The notes under the pieces are model-generated. The model saw only the letters and a list, made by a program, of their open reading frames with translations, was not told the DNA's origin and did no database searches. From assembly GCF_028368935.1 (NCBI RefSeq), contig NZ_JAQNDK010000001.1, positions 1,426,001-1,490,000 of the forward strand: DNA of 64,000 bases. Reading direction: 5' to 3'. Position numbers and translations under genes: made by a program. Positions within the stretch are counted from its first letter, which is position 1, and each line of letters starts with the position of its first letter. This DNA comes from Sorangium aterium. GTDB lineage: Bacteria; Myxococcota_A; Polyangia; Polyangiales; Polyangiaceae. Shown piece after piece: positions 5,674-34,270 of the stretch.

Positions 5674-6384
5674 ATGTCCAACGAAAGCATACCGAGTCGC
5701 AAGGGCGAGCCCGCCGGAGCACAGCCGGCGAGCGCGCCGAGCCCCCCCTCCACCAGCACGCGCCAGGGCCACGAGCGTCCGGCGCCGAGCCAGCGCGCGC
5801 CCCGGCGCCCCGCGCTCGCGGCGGCCTTCGCGCTTGCGCTGGGGGCCCCGGCGTGCAGCGGCATCGACGCCGGCGTGGAGTACCCGGGCGACCTGCCCGC
5901 GATCGATCGGTACCTCTTGACTCCCGAGAACGGACCCGAGGCGCCGCTCGCGCTGGGTGAGTTCAAGATCGGCCCCGAGACGTGCAGCGGCGTCGACACG
6001 CACCCGGTCACCCAGAAGCTCTCGCCCGAGGATCTCAGCCGCTTCCTCGCGGCGCAGGGCGCCGGGAGCATCACCCCGAAGCTGGCGAGGTCGAACCTGT
6101 ATTGGTTCGACTTCCCCGCGCGCGACAAGTCGTTCGTCCGGCTGCGCCTTGCGGTGCTCGAGGACTCCAAGCACGCGACGCAGGATCTCCACGACGCGGT
6201 GCTGCAGCACGGGCCGGGCTGGTGGGGCGTCCGCCGCTCGAACCTCGCCGTGCTCGCGCCGAAGGCGAACCTGAGGGAAGCGATGGCGTTCGCCATCAAG
6301 TACAAGCTCGTGTGCTGGGGGGTCTTCACGTACGCGGCCAACGACGACGCGTACGTCGTCCCCGGGCCCTACGCAGAGCTGTGA
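5674..6384 (+). CDS. Putative exported or lipoprotein, unknown function
   Basis: A 236-aa protein divergent from the preceding lipoprotein. A long Ser/Pro/Arg-rich leader of about 45 residues precedes a hydrophobic stretch (ALAAAFALALGAPAC) with a lipobox-like LGAPAC, so the real signal may begin at a later start not visible as ATG. The mature part has two halves rich in W, Y and F, including the motifs NLYWFDFPARDKSF and GWWGVRRSNLAVLAP. No known family is recognised. Confidence 0.6.
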   Translation: MSNESIPSRKGEPAGAQPASAPSPPSTSTRQGHERPAPSQRAPRRPALAAAFALALGAPACSGIDAGVEYPGDLPAIDRYLLTPENGPEAPLALGEFKIGPETCSGVDTHPVTQKLSPEDLSRFLAAQGAGSITPKLARSNLYWFDFPARDKSFVRLRLAVLEDSKHATQDLHDAVLQHGPGWWGVRRSNLAVLAPKANLREAMAFAIKYKLVCWGVFTYAANDDAYVVPGPYAEL

Positions 6385-6488
6385 GGGGAGCAGGCGGCGC
6401 GCGGGGCGGAGGCGCACGCTGCCGGCGCGCCGTCGGCAGACCTCTGCGAAGCTGGCCCCCACTCGGGGAGAACGCGTAGACTGCGCCC

Positions 6489-7640
6489 ATGCGCCGTTAC
6501 GTCTTGCTCGCCGCCGCCGTTGCCCCGATCCTCGCCGTGACCGCAGCCGTCTCCGTGCCCGGCTGCGCAGAGGAATTCGATGACGTCTGCGCGTTCCTCG
6601 AAGACACGAGCAACTGTTACGCAGATTTTCATGCCGATGTCGTGAATCGGTGCGGTGCGCCTGGTGCGGGGAACGGGCCCAAAGGCAAGTTCGCTGGCCG
6701 CGAGACCCTCGACATCTGTTTCCTCACGGAGGGAGGTCAGGTCGTCTTCGACCCGCCGCTCGACGTCGCATCATTCCCTCCGAAGAGCATCGCGTTCAAG
6801 CGCCTCGACGCCCGGGCAGAGGAATGCGGCTCCTTCACGTACTCGGGGGAGTTCAGCTACTCGGTGACCATCAATCCATGCATCCAGCCCGGAAATGACA
6901 CCGGTGCCGGTGGTGGTGGTGGTGGCGGCGCCGGTGGCGCCACCGCCATCGCACAATGCGAGGACGCAAATGCCGGCGGTGGTAGCGCTACTGGCGGGGG
7001 CGGCAACGAGTCTGCCGACGTGGACGGCGGTACAGTGACCGTCATCACACCGGAAGACCGTGCAACGCTCGACGTGAGCTGCTCGGAAGGCACGCAATAC
7101 CACTTCAACCGGCTCGAAGCCGAAGCGAAGTGCGGCGGCCACGACACGCTCCTTCCGAGGGCCATACTCAAAACGAGCCTGGGGAAACAGCCCCCCCCGG
7201 AGGCAGACCCCAACGATCTCGATGGATACAATGGTTTCATCTCCTTCAGCATCCACTACCCACCTATCGTTGGTTCTGGGGAGGGTGGGGGTACTGGCGG
7301 CGGGGGCGATGGTGGAGCGGGCTCCGACGCGGCCCCCTCGGCTGAGGTGGTGGAGTATTTCAACTGCGAGATCCCGGCGCCCCTCCCCCTCTGCTTCAAT
7401 GGCGTGAAGGACGGCACGGAGACCGACGTCGACTGTGGCGGCACGCTCTGCACAGCGCGGTGCGGCGATGGTCAGTCCTGCATCAAGGGCGGCAATGATT
7501 GCGCGGATGGGTTCGAGTGCGTCATCGTGGATGGCTTCTCGAAATGCGCAGCGTCCACGGGCGGAGCCGGCGGTGGCGGCGCAGCCGGCGCTGGCGGCGC
7601 AGATGGGACTGGCGGCTCGGGCGGCGCCGGCGGTCAGTAA
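6489..7640 (+). CDS. Cys- and Gly-rich putative lipoprotein
   Basis: A 383-aa secreted protein. The N-terminal signal ends in SVPGC, a relaxed lipobox. Three glycine/alanine-rich low-complexity linkers (around residues 137-170, 255-275 and 355-383) separate Cys-containing segments. Near residue 305 the motif NGVKDGTETDVDCGG is followed by CTARCGDGQSCIKGGNDC, a Cys-rich module recurrent in myxobacterial surface proteins. Such proteins are usually surface-exposed; the substrate or partner is unknown. It converges with the FHA gene, whose stop lies 14 bases away. Confidence 0.65.
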   Translation: MRRYVLLAAAVAPILAVTAAVSVPGCAEEFDDVCAFLEDTSNCYADFHADVVNRCGAPGAGNGPKGKFAGRETLDICFLTEGGQVVFDPPLDVASFPPKSIAFKRLDARAEECGSFTYSGEFSYSVTINPCIQPGNDTGAGGGGGGGAGGATAIAQCEDANAGGGSATGGGGNESADVDGGTVTVITPEDRATLDVSCSEGTQYHFNRLEAEAKCGGHDTLLPRAILKTSLGKQPPPEADPNDLDGYNGFISFSIHYPPIVGSGEGGGTGGGGDGGAGSDAAPSAEVVEYFNCEIPAPLPLCFNGVKDGTETDVDCGGTLCTARCGDGQSCIKGGNDCADGFECVIVDGFSKCAASTGGAGGGGAAGAGGADGTGGSGGAGGQ

Positions 7641-7653
7641 CCTCGCTCTCCGC

Positions 7654-8805
7654 TCAGGCGACCAGCACCTTCACCACGAACGTCGTGCTCCCGAGGCGCA
7701 GCCGGTCGTTGTCGCGCAGCTGCCGGCGCTCGCCCTGTCCGAGGCGCTGCTCGTTGACGAAGGTGCCGTTGCGCGAGCCGTCGTCCTCGATGAAGACCTG
7801 GCCCGTCGTCGGGTCCGCGTGGATCGACGCGTGCCGTGAAGAGGCGCTCGCATCCGCGAGCCCGATCTCCGTCGTAGCGTCCGCCCCGGCGCGCCCCACC
7901 TGCGTCCGGCCGCTGTACATCGGCCAGAAGCTGCCTCCGGGATCGTTCTGGAACGTCACGATGAAGCCGACGAGGACGCGCGCCGGCTGCGCCGACACCT
8001 GCGGCACCGCGCCCGAGACCGCGCCCTGGACGATCGGAGGCGCGACGATCGCAGGCGCCCTGGCCTGAGCGACCGCCGGCACCCCGCCCTGCACCATCGG
8101 CGGCGGCGCGACCGCGCCCCCCTGCACCATCGGCGGCGGCGCAACCACGCCCCCTTGCACCATCGGCGGCGGCGCGACCGCCCCCCCCTGCACCATCGGC
8201 GGCGCGACAAGCCCTGGCGCCCCCGTCGGTATCACCATCGGCGGGGGCGCAACCATCTGCGGGGGCACGCCGAAGACCGGCGCCGGCGCCACGGGCTGCT
8301 GCCCCATCGCGCCACCCAGGGACGCGCCGGGCACCATGCCCGGGCCCGGCGCCCCGAGCGCCGGCTGGGCCGGCGGGACGCCCGGCGCGTTCATCGGAGA
8401 CGCCGGCTGCGACGTGAGCCCCGCGGAAGGAGCCGCTCGGGCCCAGGGCGAGACCGGGAAAGGCGCTTCCGCGCCCGTCGAGAAGGCGACGCCTCCGCCC
8501 GGCGACGCCGGCACCGAGAGCCCGCCCCCGCCCACCCCGTACGCCTGGGGAGGAGGCGGATAGGCGCCCTGCGCGCCCCCTGCCGCGTAGCCTGGGGCTG
8601 CCGCGCCGCCATAACCCGAGGCGGCTGGCTGCCCTGGATAGCCCGGCGGGCCAGGCGGGGCATAGGCGCCAGCCCCCGCCTGCACCGGCGGAGGCGCGAC
8701 CGGAACGGAGGCTCCAGGCGCTGCGCCCGCCACGCTCGTACCGCACATCGAGCAGGCAGCGTCGGTCTCCTTGAGCATCCACGCGCAGTTCGGACACGGC
8801 CTCAT
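7654..8805 (-). CDS. Zinc-ribbon, proline-rich, FHA-domain protein
   Basis: A 383-aa protein with three parts. A zinc ribbon (CPNC...CSMCG, residues 4-22) opens it. A long Pro/Ala/Gly/Val linker includes four near-identical [10 protein letters not shown] units near residues 205-250. The C-terminal FHA domain (about 290-380) has the hallmark [22 protein letters not shown] and SRNGTFVN motifs. FHA domains bind phosphothreonine, so this is a probable receptor or scaffold for the Ser/Thr kinases abundant in this organism. The low-complexity linker suggests a flexible tether. The 272-base space upstream holds its promoter and the lon terminator. Confidence 0.85.
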
Positions 8806-9004
8806 GCGCTCTCGAGGCTACCGATTCGCTTGACATCCGTCGAGGCGAAAGCCGCCCGCAGGCGCGAGCACCGCCGCGCAGGTCGGCCTGCGCTGCGCAG
8901 GCGACGCGATGTCGCTGCCGCGCGCCAAGCGAACGCGCCAAGCTCGCCGAGAGGCAGAGGCGTCCGTCGCCGCCGCGCGGGGCGTCTTGACGAAGAGAGG
9001 CACG

Positions 9005-9039
9005 AAAAAAGGCGCCGCGCGTTCAAGCCGCGCGGCGCC
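9005..9039 (-). terminator. Rho-independent terminator of lon
   Basis: On the minus strand an 11-bp perfect G/C stem (9011-9021 with 9029-9039) with a 7-base loop is followed directly by six T residues. It lies 40 bases downstream of the lon stop codon. This is a textbook intrinsic terminator, less common in very GC-rich myxobacteria. Confidence 0.92.
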
Positions 9040-9077
9040 TCGGAGACAGGTCGCTCAGCGATCGCTGGCGACGCTCG

Positions 9078-11531
<2,454 letters not shown>

Positions 11532-26686: not shown

Positions 26687-27028
26687 ATGCAGCGCCAGCG
26701 GGCAGCGCGCCCCCGGAGCCCGATGTCGAGCCCCCGCCCCGACCCCGATGACGGCGATCCGACCCTCGAGGCCCGCGTCGCCCACGCCGTCGCGCCGTAC
26801 GCCGATCTCCTGCCCGCCGAGGATCTCGAGGCGCTGCGCGCGCTGACCGCGCGCTTCCTCGCGACGCACCCCGTCGCCGCCCTGCTCGTCGACCGGCTCC
26901 GCCCGCGCACGCCCCCCGCCGCGAGCGGCGAGGTCGACCGGCGCGAGCCCGCGGCGCTGGCCGAGGCGGCGCAGCGGCTCGCGGCGAAGGCGGGCGCCAA
27001 GGGGCGAGGGCAAGGCGGCGCTCGATGA
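26687..27028 (+). CDS. Small hypothetical protein upstream of a sigma factor
   Basis: A 113-aa acidic-then-basic protein with a predicted helical centre (VAHAVAPYADLLPAEDLEALRALTARFLATHP). No family is recognised. Its stop overlaps the start of the sigma factor gene (ATGA), so the two are translationally coupled and it may modulate that sigma factor. A later start at MSSPRPDPDD is possible. Confidence 0.6.
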   Translation: MQRQRAARPRSPMSSPRPDPDDGDPTLEARVAHAVAPYADLLPAEDLEALRALTARFLATHPVAALLVDRLRPRTPPAASGEVDRREPAALAEAAQRLAAKAGAKGRGQGGAR

Positions 27029-27759
27029 GCCACGGCGACCGGCCGCGGAGGCCCCTGAGCCCTGACCAGCAGGCGCTCGTCGCGGAGGCCGTGCCGCTCG
27101 TCGAGAGGCTCTGCGGCCACTTCCTCCGGCGGACGCGCGCGCACTACGTGGCCGACGATCTCCGCTCCGCCGCGGTCCAGGCGCTCCACGAGGCCGCGCT
27201 CGGCTTCGATCCCGCCCGCGGCGTCCCCTTCCAGGTCTACGCGTGGCGGCGCGTCGACGGCGCGCTGTCGGACGCCCTGCGGCAGGAGTCGAAGCACTGG
27301 CGCGCCGCCCGCGAGGACGGCTACGACGCCGCCGAGGCGGCGCAGGACACGAGCGACGTGCTCGCCGACGGCGACGCCGAGACGATCGCGCAGGCCGACG
27401 GGATGGCCGACCAGGTCGCGGCCGCCGCGGTGCTCGGCCTCGTCGGCCGCGCGCTGACAGCGCAGGGCGAGGAGGGCGAGCGGCTCCGCGCCACGTACGA
27501 CCGCGCCATCCGCGCGGTGGAGGCTGCCCTGTCGCGGCTCCCGGACGAGGAGCGGCGCGTCCTCGTGCTCCGCCACGTCGAGGAGCGGACCTGGCAGGCG
27601 ATCGGCGCGGCGCTCGGCTGCTCGGAGCGGACCGCGAAGCGGCGCAGCGCGGAGGCCCAGAGGCGGTTCGCCGCCGCGCTGCGAGCGGATCGGGAGCGCG
27701 CGCAGGGCGGCGCCGCAGCGCCGGATCGGGTGGGGCTGGCTGGCGCGACGTCCGGGTGA
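27025..27759 (+). CDS. RNA polymerase sigma factor (sigma-70 family)
   Basis: A 244-aa sigma-70-family protein. Region 2 is recognisable in DDLRSAAVQALHEAALGFDPARGVPFQVYAWRRVDGAL (residues 49-86; no more than part of it is needed for the call). Region 4 is in LSRLPDEERRVLVLRHVEERTWQAIGAALG with the HTH CSERTAKRRSAEAQRRF. A 60-residue acidic insert separates them. It is shorter than a housekeeping sigma and lacks region 1.1, so it is an alternative sigma factor. It is divergent from the kinase genes. Confidence 0.85.
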   Translation: MSHGDRPRRPLSPDQQALVAEAVPLVERLCGHFLRRTRAHYVADDLRSAAVQALHEAALGFDPARGVPFQVYAWRRVDGALSDALRQESKHWRAAREDGYDAAEAAQDTSDVLADGDAETIAQADGMADQVAAAAVLGLVGRALTAQGEEGERLRATYDRAIRAVEAALSRLPDEERRVLVLRHVEERTWQAIGAALGCSERTAKRRSAEAQRRFAAALRADRERAQGGAAAPDRVGLAGATSG

Positions 27760-28268: not shown

Positions 28269-29225
28269 TCAGCCAGGGCCCTCCGTCACGAACTCCGGGA
28301 CGACAGGCGTCGCCCCCGGCTCCTCCCCGCTGCCACTCCCACCACCGCCTCCGCCATCACCGCGCCCGTCCCCCTCGCCTCCCTTCGGCGCCTCCTTCCT
28401 CGACGACCGGGCCGAGTTGGGCCTGCCCACCGCGAACAGGGACGGGAACCGCTCCTGGGTGCGCGAGCTCTTCCGCCATAGCCACAGCGCTGCCGCCCGC
28501 ACCTCCTCGTAGCGCAGGCAGAGCAGCGTCCAGACCCGCACGTACCGGTCGAAGGCCTGCCGGGCCCTCGGCGTCATCGCCGTCGAGAGCTTCTGGATCA
28601 TCGCCCCGGCCAGCTCCCGCGCGCGCGCCGCGTCGTCGGCCCGGTAGTGCTTCGGGTCCGTCTTCACGACGTCGGCGCGCAGCTCGTAGAGCCGCGCGTA
28701 GCCGAGCAGATCGTTCGCGAGGTCGCGGTGCCCGGTGCCCGGCCGCAGCCGGTCGAGCTCCGGCTTGATCGCAGGGTCGTCCGCGAGCTGGTACTCGCAC
28801 AGCGCCTGCATGCGCGCCTCGACCTCCAGCCCCTCGATGACCAGCGCGACCGGCAGCCGCGCCTCCGTCTCGAGCGCGCCGGCGGCCCGGGCCTCCGCGA
28901 GCGCGTGCAGCGCGGCGAAACACGCGAGCTCCAGCTCGTCGACGTGCGTGACGTCGAACTCCTCCTTCGGAAGCCGTGCGAAGCGCGCGCGCACGTCGGG
29001 AGAGGACACGAACCCGACGACGCCGAGCGCCGCATACGTGGCCGCCTCGACATCGATCCTCACGGTGATGAGCTCGGCCTCGGCGAGGCGGTCGAGCTCC
29101 GGAGCGAGCGCCTCTAGCGCCTTCTTGCCAGCCGCGGGATCGTAAATGGGCGGAGTGTAGGATGGCTCTCCAGAGGCGGCAGCAGCGGTCGCGGAGCGCT
29201 TCTTCGACTTCGTCACAGCAGGCAT
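28269..29225 (-). CDS. Conserved hypothetical protein
   Basis: A 318-aa, mostly helical protein with an N-terminal basic Ala/Ser leader and a Gly-rich, charged C-terminal tail. The middle (LAPELDRLAEAELITVRIDV ... DLANDLLGYARLYELRADVV) is well structured and has normal codon bias. No domain is recognised and there is no membrane segment. It lies next to the mobile element but outside its terminal repeats. Confidence 0.65.
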   Translation of the reverse strand: MPAVTKSKKRSATAAAASGEPSYTPPIYDPAAGKKALEALAPELDRLAEAELITVRIDVEAATYAALGVVGFVSSPDVRARFARLPKEEFDVTHVDELELACFAALHALAEARAAGALETEARLPVALVIEGLEVEARMQALCEYQLADDPAIKPELDRLRPGTGHRDLANDLLGYARLYELRADVVKTDPKHYRADDAARARELAGAMIQKLSTAMTPRARQAFDRYVRVWTLLCLRYEEVRAAALWLWRKSSRTQERFPSLFAVGRPNSARSSRKEAPKGGEGDGRGDGGGGGGSGSGEEPGATPVVPEFVTEGPG

Positions 29226-29527
29226 ATCTCTCCTCCTGAAATCTCCTCGGAAAGGGAGTCTGTTGGTTGCGTTCGACCCGAGCGGTCGCCGCGCCGCGCA
29301 GACCGCGCGAGCGAACGATGGACCAGGGCCACCGGGACCGAGCGCGTCGCGCGAAGGGGATCCATCGCCCGGCGTCCTTCCGTCCCGTCGAGGAGATCAA
29401 TCGGGAGCGCGACCCCGATCGGGTCACGAAAATCGACCAGGGTCGGTCGATTTCTTTGCGGCTCCGTCGGGCACGGGCCCTGCCTGCGCAGAGGTCCGTC
29501 AACACGAGAAAGATGATACCTAAACGG

Positions 29528-29577
29528 CTCTCGACAGCCTCCGCCCAGAGTTTCAACTCTGCCGGCGGCTCTCGACA
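29528..29577. repeat. Left part of a 41-bp hairpin repeat array interrupted by the element
   Basis: One complete 41-bp unit (29528-29568) and the first nine bases of a second. Each unit contains the palindrome CAGAGTT-TC-AACTCTG. Identical and variant units resume at 34164. The last eight bases, TCTCGACA (29570-29577), recur at 34164-34171 as the target duplication. The rest of the 352-base space from 29226 holds no recognisable gene. Confidence 0.85.
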
Positions 29578-29591
29578 GGTGGTGTCCGGAA
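29578..29591 (+). repeat. Left terminal inverted repeat of the element
   Basis: GGTGGTGTCCGGAA. Two further direct TGTCCGGAA copies follow at about 29622 and 29644, forming a repeated subterminal pattern. Confidence 0.75.
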
Positions 29592-29762
29592 TAGCCGCTC
29601 TCCCAACCCGAGTGTCCGGAACCTGAAAATGCAGTGTCCGGAATGCTGATATCTGTTGTGACCTCGTGATCGGTCCGTAGGCTTCCGCCGGAAGAAGTGC
29701 GGGACGCGACGCCTGGCAGCGTCCGTCCCGCGTGGCCGAACCCCGCGTCAACGAGGTCCGAC

Positions 29763-30101
29763 ATGCTCACGGTAGTCCAGCCGCCCACCGGCGGCCAAGG
29801 CGAAGGTGCGCCCGCACGGCGCCGTCGCCCCCGTTCCCCCGCGCTCCTCCTGACCGACGTGGAGCGCATGCGGCTCCGCGCCGCCGTCCGCAACCTGCGC
29901 GCCTTGTACGGCACCTGGGCCTGCTTGGCCGAGGTGATGGGCGTCAGCGCCGGGTCGCTCCAGCAGCTCGCCAGCGGCAACGGCGGCTCGCATGCGATGG
30001 CCCTGCGCGCTGCGAAGGCCGCCGGGACCACGCTAGATCGCATCCTGGGCCGCCCCGTCGCGGCTGACCGCTGCCCGCACTGCGGCCGGGGTGCCCCATG
30101 A
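29763..30101 (+). CDS. Small HTH (XRE-like) protein
   Basis: A 112-aa basic protein with an N-terminal Arg/Pro-rich arm and an HTH-like core: LRALYGTWACLAEVMGVSAGS followed by LQQLASGNGGSHAMALRAAKAAG, the spacing of XRE-type DNA-binding domains. A CPHCG pair near the end may bind a metal. ATG 29763 is used; a GTG at 29697 would add 22 residues. Its stop overlaps the following sigma factor start, so it is probably the regulator or co-factor of that sigma factor. It lies inside the mobile element. Confidence 0.7.
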   Translation: MLTVVQPPTGGQGEGAPARRRRPRSPALLLTDVERMRLRAAVRNLRALYGTWACLAEVMGVSAGSLQQLASGNGGSHAMALRAAKAAGTTLDRILGRPVAADRCPHCGRGAP

Positions 30102-30646
30102 ACCCGTGGGGCCCGTACGACGGCCCCGCTCGCGTCCTGACCATCGCCGAGATCGGCGCGCAGGAGCCGCACATCCGCTCCGCGCTGCGCGGCCTCGGCG
30201 TGCCCGCCGTCGACATCGACGACGTGCTCCAGGACGTCGTGCTCGGGGCATGGATCAGCTCGCAGGCCGGTCGATACAGACCCGACCCTGCGCGCGAGCC
30301 GCTGGACGCGCTGAGGCGCTGGCTCTTCGGCGTGTGCCGGTTCCACTGCACGCACTACCACAAACGCGCGTTCCGTCGGCGAGAGGTGCCGGTCGACGAC
30401 CCGTGGGCGACCACGGGTGAGGAGCGCGCCGACCCTTGGCACGTCGGTGAGCGCATCGACGCGGCGAAGGCGCTCATGGCGATCGCTGCGATGCCGCTCT
30501 GGGCCCGAGAGGTGCTCGTCTTGGCGGCGCTCGGGCACGGCGGCACCGAGATCGCCGGCATCCTGCGCATCCCGCTCGGCACCGCGGGCAGCCGGCTGCG
30601 GCTCGCGCGGGCTCGCCTCGCTCGGAAGCTCCGACGGCGGCGGTAG
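30098..30646 (+). CDS. ECF-type RNA polymerase sigma factor on the mobile element
   Basis: A 182-aa ECF sigma factor. Region 2 is in VPAVDIDDVLQDVVLGAWI and the aromatic RWLFGVCRFHCTHYHKR near residues 73-89. Region 4 is in ALMAIAAMPLWAREVLVLAALG followed by GGTEIAGILRIPLGTAGSRL, a clear HTH. No anti-sigma gene with a membrane segment is nearby; the HTH protein upstream is coupled by a 4-base ATGA overlap. A sigma factor carried between insertion-sequence ends is unusual and could drive the element's own genes. Confidence 0.85.
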   Translation: MNPWGPYDGPARVLTIAEIGAQEPHIRSALRGLGVPAVDIDDVLQDVVLGAWISSQAGRYRPDPAREPLDALRRWLFGVCRFHCTHYHKRAFRRREVPVDDPWATTGEERADPWHVGERIDAAKALMAIAAMPLWAREVLVLAALGHGGTEIAGILRIPLGTAGSRLRLARARLARKLRRRR

Positions 30647-30780
30647 TCCGCCGCTCCCCGCCGTCATCGCGCCCGTACCCCTCCTCCCACCACACCCTGA
30701 ACGCCTGCCGCTGCACAGGTGGTTAGTTACCCGGTTTCGTCGACCGCGATATGTCTCTGCGACATCGCATCGGAGGAACC

Positions 30781-31227
30781 GTGCCCACGCTCAAAGAAAT
30801 AGAGAAAGCGATCTCGTCGCGCACCAACAAAGACGAGAGCCTAAACATGAAGGCTTTGCGCATCGTGGATAACCTAGTTGCGGGCACAGCCATGGCGCTT
30901 CAGTGCGAAGTCGAGGGTGTGTGCAGACTCAAGCAAATCTCTCTCCGTGCAGACACCGGAGACGAGTACGTCAGCGACTTCGTGACAAAGAACCAAGGCA
31001 AGTACGCGTTTGTCATTGAAGTGACTGTGCTATCAACAACAATCGCTGTTCCTCTCCAGCTCACGCCGAACTTTAACACGCTCGGGTGGCATATCCCGAG
31101 GCTGACGCCGTCTGGAATTCTGCGAGAGTTCACATCCAAGGATTCGCCCGAGTCCCTGGCGGACATCTGCGAGCAGATCACCAGAAAAATTATGCAGTCG
31201 GCTCTTGAGAACGTGAGTACGAAATGA
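30781..31227 (+). CDS. Hypothetical protein of lower GC content
   Basis: A 148-aa protein, GTG start chosen because GGAGG lies five bases upstream. It has a basic N-terminal helix (TLKEIEKAISSRTNKDESL) and a strand-rich middle (KYAFVIEVTVLSTTIAVPLQ). Codons are less GC-biased than neighbours, suggesting recent acquisition. Its 3' end overlaps by 38 bases the convergent gene that ends at 31190. No family recognised. Confidence 0.6.
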   Translation: MPTLKEIEKAISSRTNKDESLNMKALRIVDNLVAGTAMALQCEVEGVCRLKQISLRADTGDEYVSDFVTKNQGKYAFVIEVTVLSTTIAVPLQLTPNFNTLGWHIPRLTPSGILREFTSKDSPESLADICEQITRKIMQSALENVSTK

Positions 31228-31525
31228 ACTCGCCATCGCAAACAATCATAACCCAGTCGCGCGGATCTGTTACTGGCATATACGCGTAGATGCGCCAGGC
31301 GTCGTCGAACAGCGGCAATTCTGCGCCAGTCGCAGTCTCCCGGTAGCATCCTACCGTCAGGCCGTGCCGCACGATGGGCCTCATGGACTCCGTCGAGTCC
31401 AGTTCGATCGTGGCCAGCACTGCTCCAGATTTTGAGTGTAGGCAAAGCTGCTCTTTCTGCGATCCGCTGATGTGCGGCGAAGCGTTTGCCACTGATCGCC
31501 AGGCATCTTCCAGCGCACGGCTCAT
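31190..31525 (-). CDS. Hypothetical protein convergent with the previous gene
   Basis: A 111-aa protein starting at the ATG at 31525 (MSRALEDAWRSVANAS). It contains an aromatic and acidic C-terminal part (LPLFDDAWRIYAYMPVTDPR). Lower GC like its partner. The tail-to-tail overlap of 38 bases could let the two transcripts pair. It lies upstream-opposed to the transposase only by strand: the transposase gene ends 106 bases before this gene's start. No family recognised. Confidence 0.5.
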   Translation of the reverse strand: MSRALEDAWRSVANASPHISGSQKEQLCLHSKSGAVLATIELDSTESMRPIVRHGLTVGCYRETATGAELPLFDDAWRIYAYMPVTDPRDWVMIVCDGEFISYSRSQEPTA

Positions 31526-31631
31526 CGGGCACCCCCGGCGCAAAGTGCCTCGGTTGTTGCAATTGCCGGCACCACCATCTCGTGAAACATCGAGTAGTAT
31601 GGCCCGTTGGCGCTTCACAAACAAGCGGATA

Positions 31632-32693
31632 TTACTCGCCATCTCCAAACAGGTTGAGTTGCGTCATCCGCCGCGGCTCAGGCGCTTGCGGCGGGTCTTG
31701 CGGTGGCGTCGGCCCGCGGGGAGCCACAGGCGCAGCAGGCGCGCTTCCGACCAGCCGCAGGAACCCGCGCCCGTTGGGCAACTCGCGAGCGGGCGCAGGC
31801 GTCTCGCCGGGGCGAGGCTGCAACTTGAGCGGCTGCGGCACGGGCGGCGGCGCCTCCTCCTCCTCGGCCATGGCCGCGGTGACGAGCTCGGCGAGCGTCC
31901 ACGGTCGCTCTGCGAGACCAGCCGCTACGGCCGGCGTGGCGCCGAGCGTGCCGTGGACGCGCACCCAGTTGTAGACGGCGATGCCGAGGCCGACCGCGGC
32001 ACGGTGCCCGCGCAACGTCTTGCTGAAGGCCAGGCAGAGGCGGCGCGTCCTGCCGACCGTGTGACGTGTCTGGAGGTTGAAGCGCTCGACGTAGGACGTC
32101 GACATGAGCTCGTCCTTGGGCGCGCCGAAGATCGGCGTCTTGGTGACGAACGGGTTCCGAGGCGGCTCGTAGCGATGATCGGGCGAGCGCTGCGGCCCGC
32201 CGCGATAGTTCTTGACGCACTGGGCGTAGTCGGCCGAGCCGCGGAAGCTGGCGGCCATCGCCTCGATGTACGGCTGCCAGCCGTCGCTCGTGATGTGCGG
32301 CACGACCGTGAGCCGCGAACGTAGGTCCTTGATGAACGTCTCCGTGTTCTCGCCGTCGCGCTTGCCGACGTGGAAGGAGATGGCGAGCTTCGTGTTCGCG
32401 TCCAGTGCGACGTAGAGGTACGCGTCGCCGTGCTCGGCGGCGTCCTTCTCGGTCACGCGGGCCTGCTTCTTCTGGACGAAGCTCCACATCTCGTCCATCT
32501 GGATCACGTGCGCCGCTAGGTTGCGCACCTTGCGGCTGTGGAGCCGGATGCAGCCCTCTCCGAGGCGGAGCGCCAGGGCCATCACGGTCCCCTTGTCGAC
32601 GTCGACCATGCGCGCGACGGAGCGGATCGAGTTGCCTTCCACGAGAGCGGACGCGATGCGGACACGCGTCTCCAGCGGGAGCGGTGCGGGCAC
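31632..32693 (-). CDS. IS1-family-like DDE transposase
   Basis: A 353-aa transposase in one frame, unlike IS1 itself, which needs a frameshift. An N-terminal HTH (residues 8-42; GNSIRSVARMVDVDKGTVMA) binds the ends. The catalytic triad is Asp67 (IQMDEMWSF), Asp137 (ITSDGWQPY) and Glu203 (SYVERFNLQTR). The segment VERFNLQTRHTVGRTRRLCL parallels the IS1 ERNNLTLRTR-LARKT motif. A Pro-rich tail of about 85 residues is added. All three acidic residues are present, so it may be active. Confidence 0.87.
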   Translation of the reverse strand: MPAPLPLETRVRIASALVEGNSIRSVARMVDVDKGTVMALALRLGEGCIRLHSRKVRNLAAHVIQMDEMWSFVQKKQARVTEKDAAEHGDAYLYVALDANTKLAISFHVGKRDGENTETFIKDLRSRLTVVPHITSDGWQPYIEAMAASFRGSADYAQCVKNYRGGPQRSPDHRYEPPRNPFVTKTPIFGAPKDELMSTSYVERFNLQTRHTVGRTRRLCLAFSKTLRGHRAAVGLGIAVYNWVRVHGTLGATPAVAAGLAERPWTLAELVTAAMAEEEEAPPPVPQPLKLQPRPGETPAPARELPNGRGFLRLVGSAPAAPVAPRGPTPPQDPPQAPEPRRMTQLNLFGDGE

Positions 32694-32775
32694 GACGGGC
32701 CTTGCCTCTCTCCCTGGGCCGGCCCATCATGCGGCTGCGACGCGCGCTCTGTGGGCCACCACAGGGTGTGTTGCA

Positions 32776-32890
32776 GCCCCGCTCCCGGTTGCAGCCGAGA
32801 GCGGGGCGCTTTGCTGAGTGGCCCTTAAAATAACACGAAACGCCTATGTTTCCCGGCGTTTCTGAGTAGCTAGGACACGGGTTGTCCTAG
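32776..32890. promoter_or_regulatory. Cluster of three hairpins between transposase and antirepressor-like genes
   Basis: Three perfect inverted repeats lie in tandem: 32776-32784 with 32799-32807 (GCCCCGCTC/GAGCGGGGC), 32837-32844 with 32855-32862 (GAAACGCC/GGCGTTTC), and 32870-32877 with 32883-32890 (CTAGGACA/TGTCCTAG). The second looks like a terminator for the upstream minus-strand gene; the third resembles an operator palindrome. This sits in the promoter region of the transposase, so it may control transposition. Confidence 0.65.
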
Positions 32891-32961
32891 CTCTCATGCG
32901 CGATTACAGCCTGTTTGACGGCACTTCTTGGAGCGGCGGCTCGCTCCGCGCGCGGCCTCCG

Positions 32962-33759
32962 TCATGCCGCGCTCTGGACCTTCTTCTTGGCCAGCTTGGG
33001 CGGGTCCTCGGCCAGGTCCTTGAGGATGAGGTCCTTGTAGTGATCGTCGTACAGGTAGCACGGCACATCGGCTACATCGGACCCTGGTTTCTTGTCCATG
33101 ATGGTCTTGCAGTGCGGCTCCTTGCCCCTGATCCCGAGCTTCGTGATCCGGATGCCGACCATCTGCCGGCTCACTCCGGCCAACCTCGCGATGTCGTCGG
33201 GGCGGTGCCACTGCCCTCCGGGCAGTGCGGGCAGCACGTCGGCCGCGCGCTGGCCCGTCAGGAGGCGCAGCCCATGGGCGAGGGCGGCGTCCTTCGACTC
33301 TTGGGAGACCGCGGGCGACATGAGTTCGACGATGCGGGTGATGACCCTCGCGCGTTCGAGTTCAGCGTCTCGCGTGTCGTTGGCCGGCTGCCGAACCGCC
33401 GACAACTCGCTGCGCCGTGCGGCCATATAGACCGCGATCAGCTCCCTGGTGATGGCGATGGCTGTTGGCGTCTCGCTCTTCGTGACGATGAAGAGCGCAG
33501 CGGCCTCGGTGAGCCAGTACTCGGTACCTGGCCGACCACCCTGCGGGGAGGTTCGCCCCACCGTGGGGCGAACCTCGGAATCATTGAGGTTTCCGGCTTC
33601 GCGGTGCCGCTCGATCAACTCCCGTATCTTTCTCGGCCGCTCGTACTCGAGCCGATCAGCGAGGTCGACGTCCCTCACCAGCGGCTCATCCTCGCCGTCG
33701 CGGAACCCCACCGTCCACCCGTTCACCTCACGCAGAACCAACTCGCTCGATCCACCCAT
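32962..33759 (-). CDS. Phage antirepressor-like DNA-binding protein
   Basis: A 265-aa protein. The ATG at 33759 is chosen because GGAGG lies eight bases upstream. The N-terminal part (VNGWTVGFRDGEDEPLVRD, ADRLEYERPRKIRELIERH, YWLTEAAALFIVTKSETPTA) resembles Rha/BRO-type phage regulatory domains. The C-terminal part has an HTH-like RPDDIARLAGVSRQMVGIRI. It is the promoter-distal cargo gene near the right end of the element and may control its transfer or lysogeny-like state. An internal 12-bp palindrome at 33548-33576 lies within its coding sequence. Confidence 0.6.
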   Translation of the reverse strand: MGGSSELVLREVNGWTVGFRDGEDEPLVRDVDLADRLEYERPRKIRELIERHREAGNLNDSEVRPTVGRTSPQGGRPGTEYWLTEAAALFIVTKSETPTAIAITRELIAVYMAARRSELSAVRQPANDTRDAELERARVITRIVELMSPAVSQESKDAALAHGLRLLTGQRAADVLPALPGGQWHRPDDIARLAGVSRQMVGIRITKLGIRGKEPHCKTIMDKKPGSDVADVPCYLYDDHYKDLILKDLAEDPPKLAKKKVQSAA

Positions 33760-34149
33760 ACCCGAACCTCCGCTGCGCCCGCCGTTGTCCGTCGTCGCGC
33801 CGATCGCGATCTCCGGCAACACGTCGCCTACGGTGTCACTAGCCCGATCGCCCCCGATGCGGGATGGCGCGTCAAAATCGGCGACAAAACGGCTGGATTT
33901 GAGCGAGCAGCACGCGGGCGCTGGCCGATCGATCGACCGCGCTTCACGAGAAGGACGACGACACTGGCTCCTTCACCCGACAGATTCAGAGATTTGTCAA
34001 GAACAAACGCAGGACGGCGCCGTCGGCGGGACGGACCGTGCTCGGCGGGGGCGTCTGCCGACTGGGCATCGCCTCAGATTCGCTTCAGTGGAACGGGGTG
34101 TCCGGGATGCGCCGCGCGAGTGTCCGGAATGCGGATGGCGACGATGTGG

Positions 34150-34163
34150 TTCCGGACATCACC
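34150..34163 (-). repeat. Right terminal inverted repeat of the element
   Basis: TTCCGGACATCACC, the reverse complement of GGTGATGTCCGGAA. Two TGTCCGG(G/A)A copies in the opposite orientation lie inside it, at about 34099 and 34121. The 327-base space from 33823 to 34149 is otherwise without a recognisable gene. Confidence 0.75.
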
Positions 34164-34270
34164 TCTCGACAGCCTCCGCCCAGAGTTTCAACTCTGCCGG
34201 CGGCTCTCGACAGCCTCCGCCCAGAGTTTCATCTCTCCCGGGAGCCTCTCGACAGCCTCCGGGTCGATCA
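34164..34270. repeat. Right part of the 41-bp hairpin repeat array
   Basis: A unit matching the left copy (34164-34203), a second diverged in its palindrome arm (34204-34245) and the start of a third (from 34246). From 34271 to 34484 only a 29-codon minus-strand frame beginning MNADAELRVLT is seen, too short to support as a gene. Confidence 0.8.

Follow-up and report, generated by a model that had tools for sequence, protein, structure and literature searches.

An IS1-related transposon family of Sorangium and Polyangium that has core regulatory genes and markedly prefers arrays of phased palindromes

The stretch of DNA analysed here (the window, 64,000 bp) covers positions 1426001-1490000 of contig C1 of genome G000, a Sorangium genome of 13.5 Mb in 7 contigs. 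At 29578-34163 the window holds an IS1-related element, which carries an IS1-type DDE transposase together with a helix-turn-helix (HTH) protein, a sigma factor and three further open reading frames (ORFs), and which is flanked on both sides by a palindromic tandem array. The features of the locus, with strand where one applies, are as follows.

29528-29577: left target array, palindromic tandem unit of about 41 bp, ending in the left target-site duplication (TSD)
29570-29577: TSD TCTCGACA, left copy, 8/8 identical to the right copy
29578-34163: IS1-related element, 4586 bp, with inverted ends and an 8-bp TSD
29578-29591, plus strand: left terminal inverted repeat GGTGGTGTCCGGAA, 13/14 against the right end
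29582-29643, plus strand: three direct copies of the end motif GTGTCCGGAA (at 29582, 29612 and 29634)
29697-30101, plus strand: HTH protein, core gene, 134 aa from the longest start, with relatives in 44/45 elements
30098-30646, plus strand: sigma-70-like factor, resembling the extracytoplasmic function (ECF) type, 182 aa, overlapping the HTH gene
30751-31227, plus strand: orphan cargo ORF, 158 aa, no convincing family
31190-31648, minus strand: orphan cargo ORF, 152 aa from the longest start, no family
31632-32693, minus strand: IS1-type DDE transposase with a C-terminal extension, 353 aa, single ORF
31647-31661, minus strand: QLNLF near the transposase C-terminus, a match to the beta-clamp-binding consensus
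32871-32889: palindrome TAGGACACGGGTTGTCCTA, candidate operator upstream of the transposase gene
32962-33822, minus strand: Bro-N/phage anti-repressor-like cargo gene, 286 aa from the longest start
34098-34129, plus strand: two direct end-motif copies (GTGTCCGGGA and GTGTCCGGAA) near the right end
34150-34163, minus strand: right terminal inverted repeat, 13/14 against the left end
34164-34171: TSD TCTCGACA, right copy, 8/8 identical to the left copy
34164-34261: right target array

The two ends, GGTGGTGTCCGGAATA (29578) and GGTGATGTCCGGAACC (34163), match at 13/16 positions, including 13 of the first 14. An earlier note on this DNA had proposed a bounded IS1-like unit with a complete DDE transposase and five further genes, among them an HTH and a sigma gene; the boundaries, the TSD, the transposase and the number of ORFs are all confirmed here. 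The transposase reaches 26.9 bits with Pfam DDE_Tnp_IS1 (PF03400; cut-off 24.1), and its best match is the NCBIfam IS1 transposase model (63.9 bits, below the cut-off of 100). Residues D67, D137 and E203 are invariant in the transposase alignment A1. The predicted structure is RNase H-like (mean predicted local distance difference test score, pLDDT, 79.4) with a disordered tail. Foldseek matched it to the DDE transposases Mos1 (1.7e-5) and ISCth4 (1.8e-5) with low TM-scores, and a PDB search with the transposase profile gave no match. The GTGTCCGGAA repeats at the left end are probably transposase-binding sites. IS21-type ends, guessed from these repeats, were rejected: no IS21 genes occur among the element ORFs, and the ends fit the GGT..ACC pattern with an 8-bp TSD.

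The window element is one member of a Sorangium/Polyangium family of IS1-related transposons. The transposase was matched in 21/144 related genomes, own genome included. A discovery set of 20 fetched loci, the window and the paralogue L009 contained 24 transposase copies, and a held-out set of 26 further loci contained 30, to which the end-finder rule (GGT..ACC ends, inverted match of at least 11/16, TSD of at least 7/8) was applied unchanged. The rule resolved 22/24 discovery copies, with a TSD of 8/8 in 20 and of 7/8 in L052 and L064; a further element, L058, was delimited by eye (7-bp duplication), which brings the discovery elements to 23. The held-out set gave 23 matches, of which 22 were credible, each with an 8/8 TSD. 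The other, the first match at L137 (10.7 kb, 7/8 TSD), was dropped as spurious; a relaxed search placed the ends of L137 at 6219-10691, with an 8/8 TSD and in a 21-bp array, and this element was kept outside the counts. Ends were unresolved at L063 in the discovery set and at L092, L096, L099 (two further copies), L110, L136, L139 and L137 in the held-out set. The 45 elements with resolved ends measure 2730-7030 bp, and 42/45 have an 8/8 TSD. In a control of 40 scans (20 loci, both strands) the end-finder returned no 8/8-TSD pair, so the end pair of the window element is not due to chance; as 7/8 pairs arose in 12/40 of the same scans, 8/8 pairs are trusted and 7/8 pairs are taken with caution. 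At L129 (G019:C9) two family elements overlap in one array and are therefore not independent; their 6.7-kb composite also has an 8-bp TSD. The end motif varies by subgroup (GTGTCCGGAA, GTGGTCGC, GTGCTGCACTTTG and others), and copies of it lie near both ends in a similar layout. The earlier note had suggested looking for further copies with such ends, and L009 supplies one: a second element built in this way, with ends of its own, in the same genome.

Of the five genes that the earlier note had taken as cargo, two belong to the core of the family. With profiles grown from the window proteins, relatives of the HTH protein were found in 22/23 discovery and 22/22 held-out elements (44/45 in total), and relatives of the sigma factor in 17/23 and 12/22 (29/45). 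This conservation makes the pair core genes and rules out incidental cargo. The description as cargo holds for the anti-repressor-like gene and the two orphan ORFs, which, by the same kind of profile, are without relatives among the 22 remaining discovery elements. The HTH gene often begins near one end and reads inward. Its predicted structure has five helices (mean pLDDT 71.8), and since the best PDB match, ClgR, reaches only an E-value of 0.02 (Foldseek, weak), an XRE-like HTH is probable and not proven. The sigma ORF scores 26.0 bits with Pfam Sigma70_r4_2 (cut-off 25.7) and stays below the cut-off for Sigma70_r2. The anti-repressor-like protein matches a PHROG anti-repressor at 1.9e-5, with Pfam Bro-N below cut-off. 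The other genes of the family vary: among 90 selected ORFs, 15 Pfam families were recognised, none of them in more than one member, so that no cargo family is shared; a few have defence-like matches. Just outside the window element, at 27025-27759 on the plus strand, lies a further sigma-like ORF of 244 aa, judged by eye.

The target of the window element, not noticed in the earlier note, is itself repetitive. A perfect 51-bp direct repeat (29528-29578 and 34163-34213) flanks the element, and the rejoined site (both flanks joined, one TSD copy kept) is a 41-bp array of 3.5 copies with 95% match. The earlier note had also called for a search for empty sites. Among the orthologous sites one is cleanly empty and three are rearranged. 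In S. cellulosum So0008-312 (L185) the flanks are separated by 0.17 kb, which contains a 3.1-copy array of about 42 bp and no element; as this empty site keeps the tandem array, the element entered a pre-existing one. In ceGT47 (L186) and ce26 (L188) arrays of the same kind, of 4.6 and 5.5 copies, stand beside the left flank, with the right flank about 2.3 kb and about 8 kb further on, respectively. In So0157-2 (L187) the left flank can be aligned only in part, and one repeat unit adjoins the right flank. The left flank of the window element, gene start and array (29075-29578), has a similar segment at L009 (reverse complement, 8656-9173); this segment seems to have been duplicated independently of the element.

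The same kind of target was found across the family. Arrays were called with Tandem Repeats Finder (TRF) as a period of 18-95 bp spanning the rejoined site. At a score of at least 50 an array was present at 19/23 discovery and 19/22 held-out sites (38/45 in total), and at a score of at least 100 at 19/23 and 17/22 (36/45). Of 3000 points placed at random in 20 control stretches (20 kb each), 66 and 38 fell in arrays at the two thresholds. The units are mostly 21-22 or 41-44 bp, some 85 bp, and their sequence differs between loci. Element-free arrays with units of 21 or 41-43 bp were also seen in the control stretches L071, L077, L080 and L083, and are common in these genomes. The insertion point has a phase within the arrays as well: the palindrome score at the TSD centre is 4.61/9 in the discovery and 4.50/9 in the held-out set (control mean 2.66), the next peaks lie 21 and 42 bp to either side in both sets, and the TSD centre takes a mean percentile among the 21 phases of 0.77 (23 sites) and 0.82 (21 sites, L102 skipped).

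These data make it likely that the element at 29578-34163 is an IS1-related transposon that inserts into palindrome arrays phased at about 21 bp, selected by structure more than by sequence. The sequences compared give good support both to the anatomy, that of a genuine transposon related to IS1 whose family has regulators among its core genes, and to the targeting, in which the family markedly favours arrays of phased palindromes. Insertion into arrays of many unrelated sequences suggests that shape is recognised and not letters.

One repeat sequence might instead be recognised by each transposase, as in insertion sequences (IS) that target repetitive extragenic palindromic (REP) elements. 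Targeting of REP sequences is known in members of IS3, IS110, IS4, IS256 and IS5 (IS1397, ISPpu9, ISPsy8 and others), as far as described in the part of PMC1525189 available, and some sites do recur here, TCTCGACA five times, CGCCCACG five times and CGTCGTAG four times. This explanation is nonetheless unlikely: transposases that share about 50% identity insert at one and the same 8-bp site (TCTCGACA, five elements), the elements of genome G004 sit in arrays of several unrelated sequences, and the 45 elements have 32 distinct TSDs with almost no consensus (no position exceeds 0.26 bit when 31 distinct sites are compared).

Marginally less probable again is survivorship, in which insertion is near-random and only insertions in neutral intergenic repeats persist. 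The rejoined sites do look like intergenic repeats, and large cargo-bearing elements would damage genes. However, other IS (PF01609 and PF00665) in four of the same genomes (G000, G004, G019 and G060) are not found at arrays: a 20-22, 40-45 or 84-86-bp array occurred anywhere in the fetched 3.3 kb or so (within about 1.5 kb) at 6/58 loci, 2 of the original 60 having been dropped as members of the family of the window element. Arrays make up only 0-1.2% of the sampled DNA of family genomes. Survivorship also leaves unexplained the palindrome-centred phase in both halves of the data, and the single 21-bp array at L060 (G019:C15) in which three different family elements are inserted, each with its own TSD.

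The two remaining explanations are very improbable. Arrays and elements occur together, as they would if the elements had given rise to the arrays, for instance through repeated cycles of insertion and excision; yet element-free arrays exist at the So0008-312 site, in control stretches and elsewhere in the genome, and units of 21-44 bp do not fit an 8-bp duplication. The flanking repeats could recombine, but cassette-like movement by homologous recombination between them, without transposition, does not agree with sharp GGT..ACC ends and 8-bp duplications in unrelated arrays, or with the full-length transposases in the alignment.

The C-terminal extension of the transposase carries a motif of a known kind, QLxLF being the beta-clamp-binding consensus according to the part of PMC4549789 available. 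The pattern Q[LM]x[LFM][FWL] was present in the last 120 aa of 50/53 family members (missing in L059, interrupted; L141, truncated; and one L099 copy) and in 0.6% of shuffled tails. In a far set of IS1-type relatives from Bradyrhizobium, Nitrobacter, Bryobacteraceae and other Polyangiales it was present in 1/17, namely in L063, which the tree places within the family; the family together with L063 forms one supported group (100/99). Eight far elements lacking the tail have 8/8 TSDs, and none of them lies in an array; the palindrome score showed no 21-bp periodicity in the far set (n=8). Sampled array cover in three far-relative genomes was 0.07-0.7%, so that, within these small samples, far relatives do not simply lack arrays.

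The palindrome TAGGACA-N5-TGTCCTA (up to 3 mismatches) was found between -150 and +320 of the longest transposase ORF start in 41/45 elements (all except L053, L060b, L102 and L135), in 3/300 random windows and in 0/7 far elements. With up to 1 mismatch, all 3 sites of genome G004 are at family transposases, as are 5 of the 9 in G060 and 11 of the 18 in G019; the reversed pattern gave 0 sites in each of the three. Such conservation near the transposase start indicates that the transposase gene is probably regulated; no promoter of the sigma factor was identified, and a coupling of transposition to host control, as the earlier note suggested, is conjectural. The pattern first tried for the operator, GGACA..TGTC[CT], proved overly strict (8 matches in 23 elements, 3 in 400 kb). 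In two Polyangium-group genomes the palindrome also occurs outside elements (L197, L204, L206 and L207, near 1501-1519). Sites outside elements lie, by eye, near XRE-like or excisionase-like ORFs, and may represent a host regulon. LexA/SOS control seems less likely, the examined outside sites having no obvious lexA or recA beside them.

Several observations weigh against structural targeting or against the roles proposed for tail and operator. TRF found no array at 7/45 sites (L009, L051, L061, L065, L102 at a contig end, L107 and L140); on inspection by eye, degenerate arrays or clusters of palindromes can be seen at five of them, and nothing at L065 and L140. Centring on the palindrome is only a tendency, the TSD centre being the best or tied phase at 13/23 discovery and 13/21 held-out sites, and the far set too weakly prefers a palindrome there (3.75/9, percentile 0.69, n=8). 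The relatives without tail differ by lineage and mostly by host, so that the association of tail and array amounts to about one evolutionary event; as L140, moreover, carries the clamp motif yet no array, the link between tail and target can only be tentative. Orientation relative to replication, with the origin taken at dnaA and the terminus half-way, showed no bias (6 with and 5 against among 11 scored, 3 elements unscored) and lends no support to a strand-specific fork model. In G000, 8 operator sites stand against 8 control sites at up to 2 mismatches, and the signal there is thus only the perfect site in the window element.

A mechanism compatible with structural targeting can be outlined. 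The transposase would bind the repeats of the end motif, which is GTGTCCGGAA in this element and differs in relatives, pair the ends and join them across an 8-bp stagger at the centre of a palindrome. The target would be chosen mostly by structure, as phased palindromes that are perhaps extruded or exposed on replicating DNA, and the C-terminal tail could bring the transposase to sites of replication or repair by binding the clamp. The HTH protein, or a host factor, may regulate the transposase through TAGGACA-N5-TGTCCTA, and the genes of the element may be driven by the sigma factor. We infer the clamp role of the tail and the regulatory targets of the HTH/sigma pair. The full proposal, a DDE family that finds its target by architecture (palindromes every two helical turns, of any sequence), probably via a clamp-docking tail, and that brings its own HTH and sigma regulators, is put forward tentatively, with somewhat less than even confidence.

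The question addressed is how transposons choose safe targets without a fixed sequence. For it the family supplies many natural insertions, relatives without the tail or the array habit, and, in the C-terminal tail, a short candidate module. The proposal would give the phased tandem palindromes of large myxobacterial genomes a function-related property, and would provide a case of a transposon family with its own sigma factor as a core gene. Searches of open-access literature, judged by their listings, returned no paper describing comparable elements, nor any describing IS that enter tandem arrays of diverse sequence.

IS1 elements are compact, about 0.8-1.2 kb long with little besides the transposase, and have short inverted GG.. 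ends and an 8-9-bp target duplication; in classical IS1 two frames are joined by a frameshift, and some other family members have a single ORF. The window element resembles them in its IS1-type DDE transposase, GGT..ACC ends and 8-bp duplication. It differs in size (4586 bp with five other ORFs; 2.7-7.0 kb in its family), in a transposase that is a single ORF with a C-terminal tail, and in the habits of its family, which has HTH and often sigma genes and targets arrays. With the clamp-binding transposases of PMC4549789 it shares a C-terminal QLxLF-like motif, sometimes two; IS1634 was studied there and tandem-array targeting is not mentioned in the part of that source available; for the present family clamp binding is a prediction. 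With the REP-targeting IS it shares insertion into intergenic palindromic repeats. Those elements use one REP sequence per genome, according to the available part of PMC1525189, whereas the present family is IS1-type and uses many unrelated arrays.

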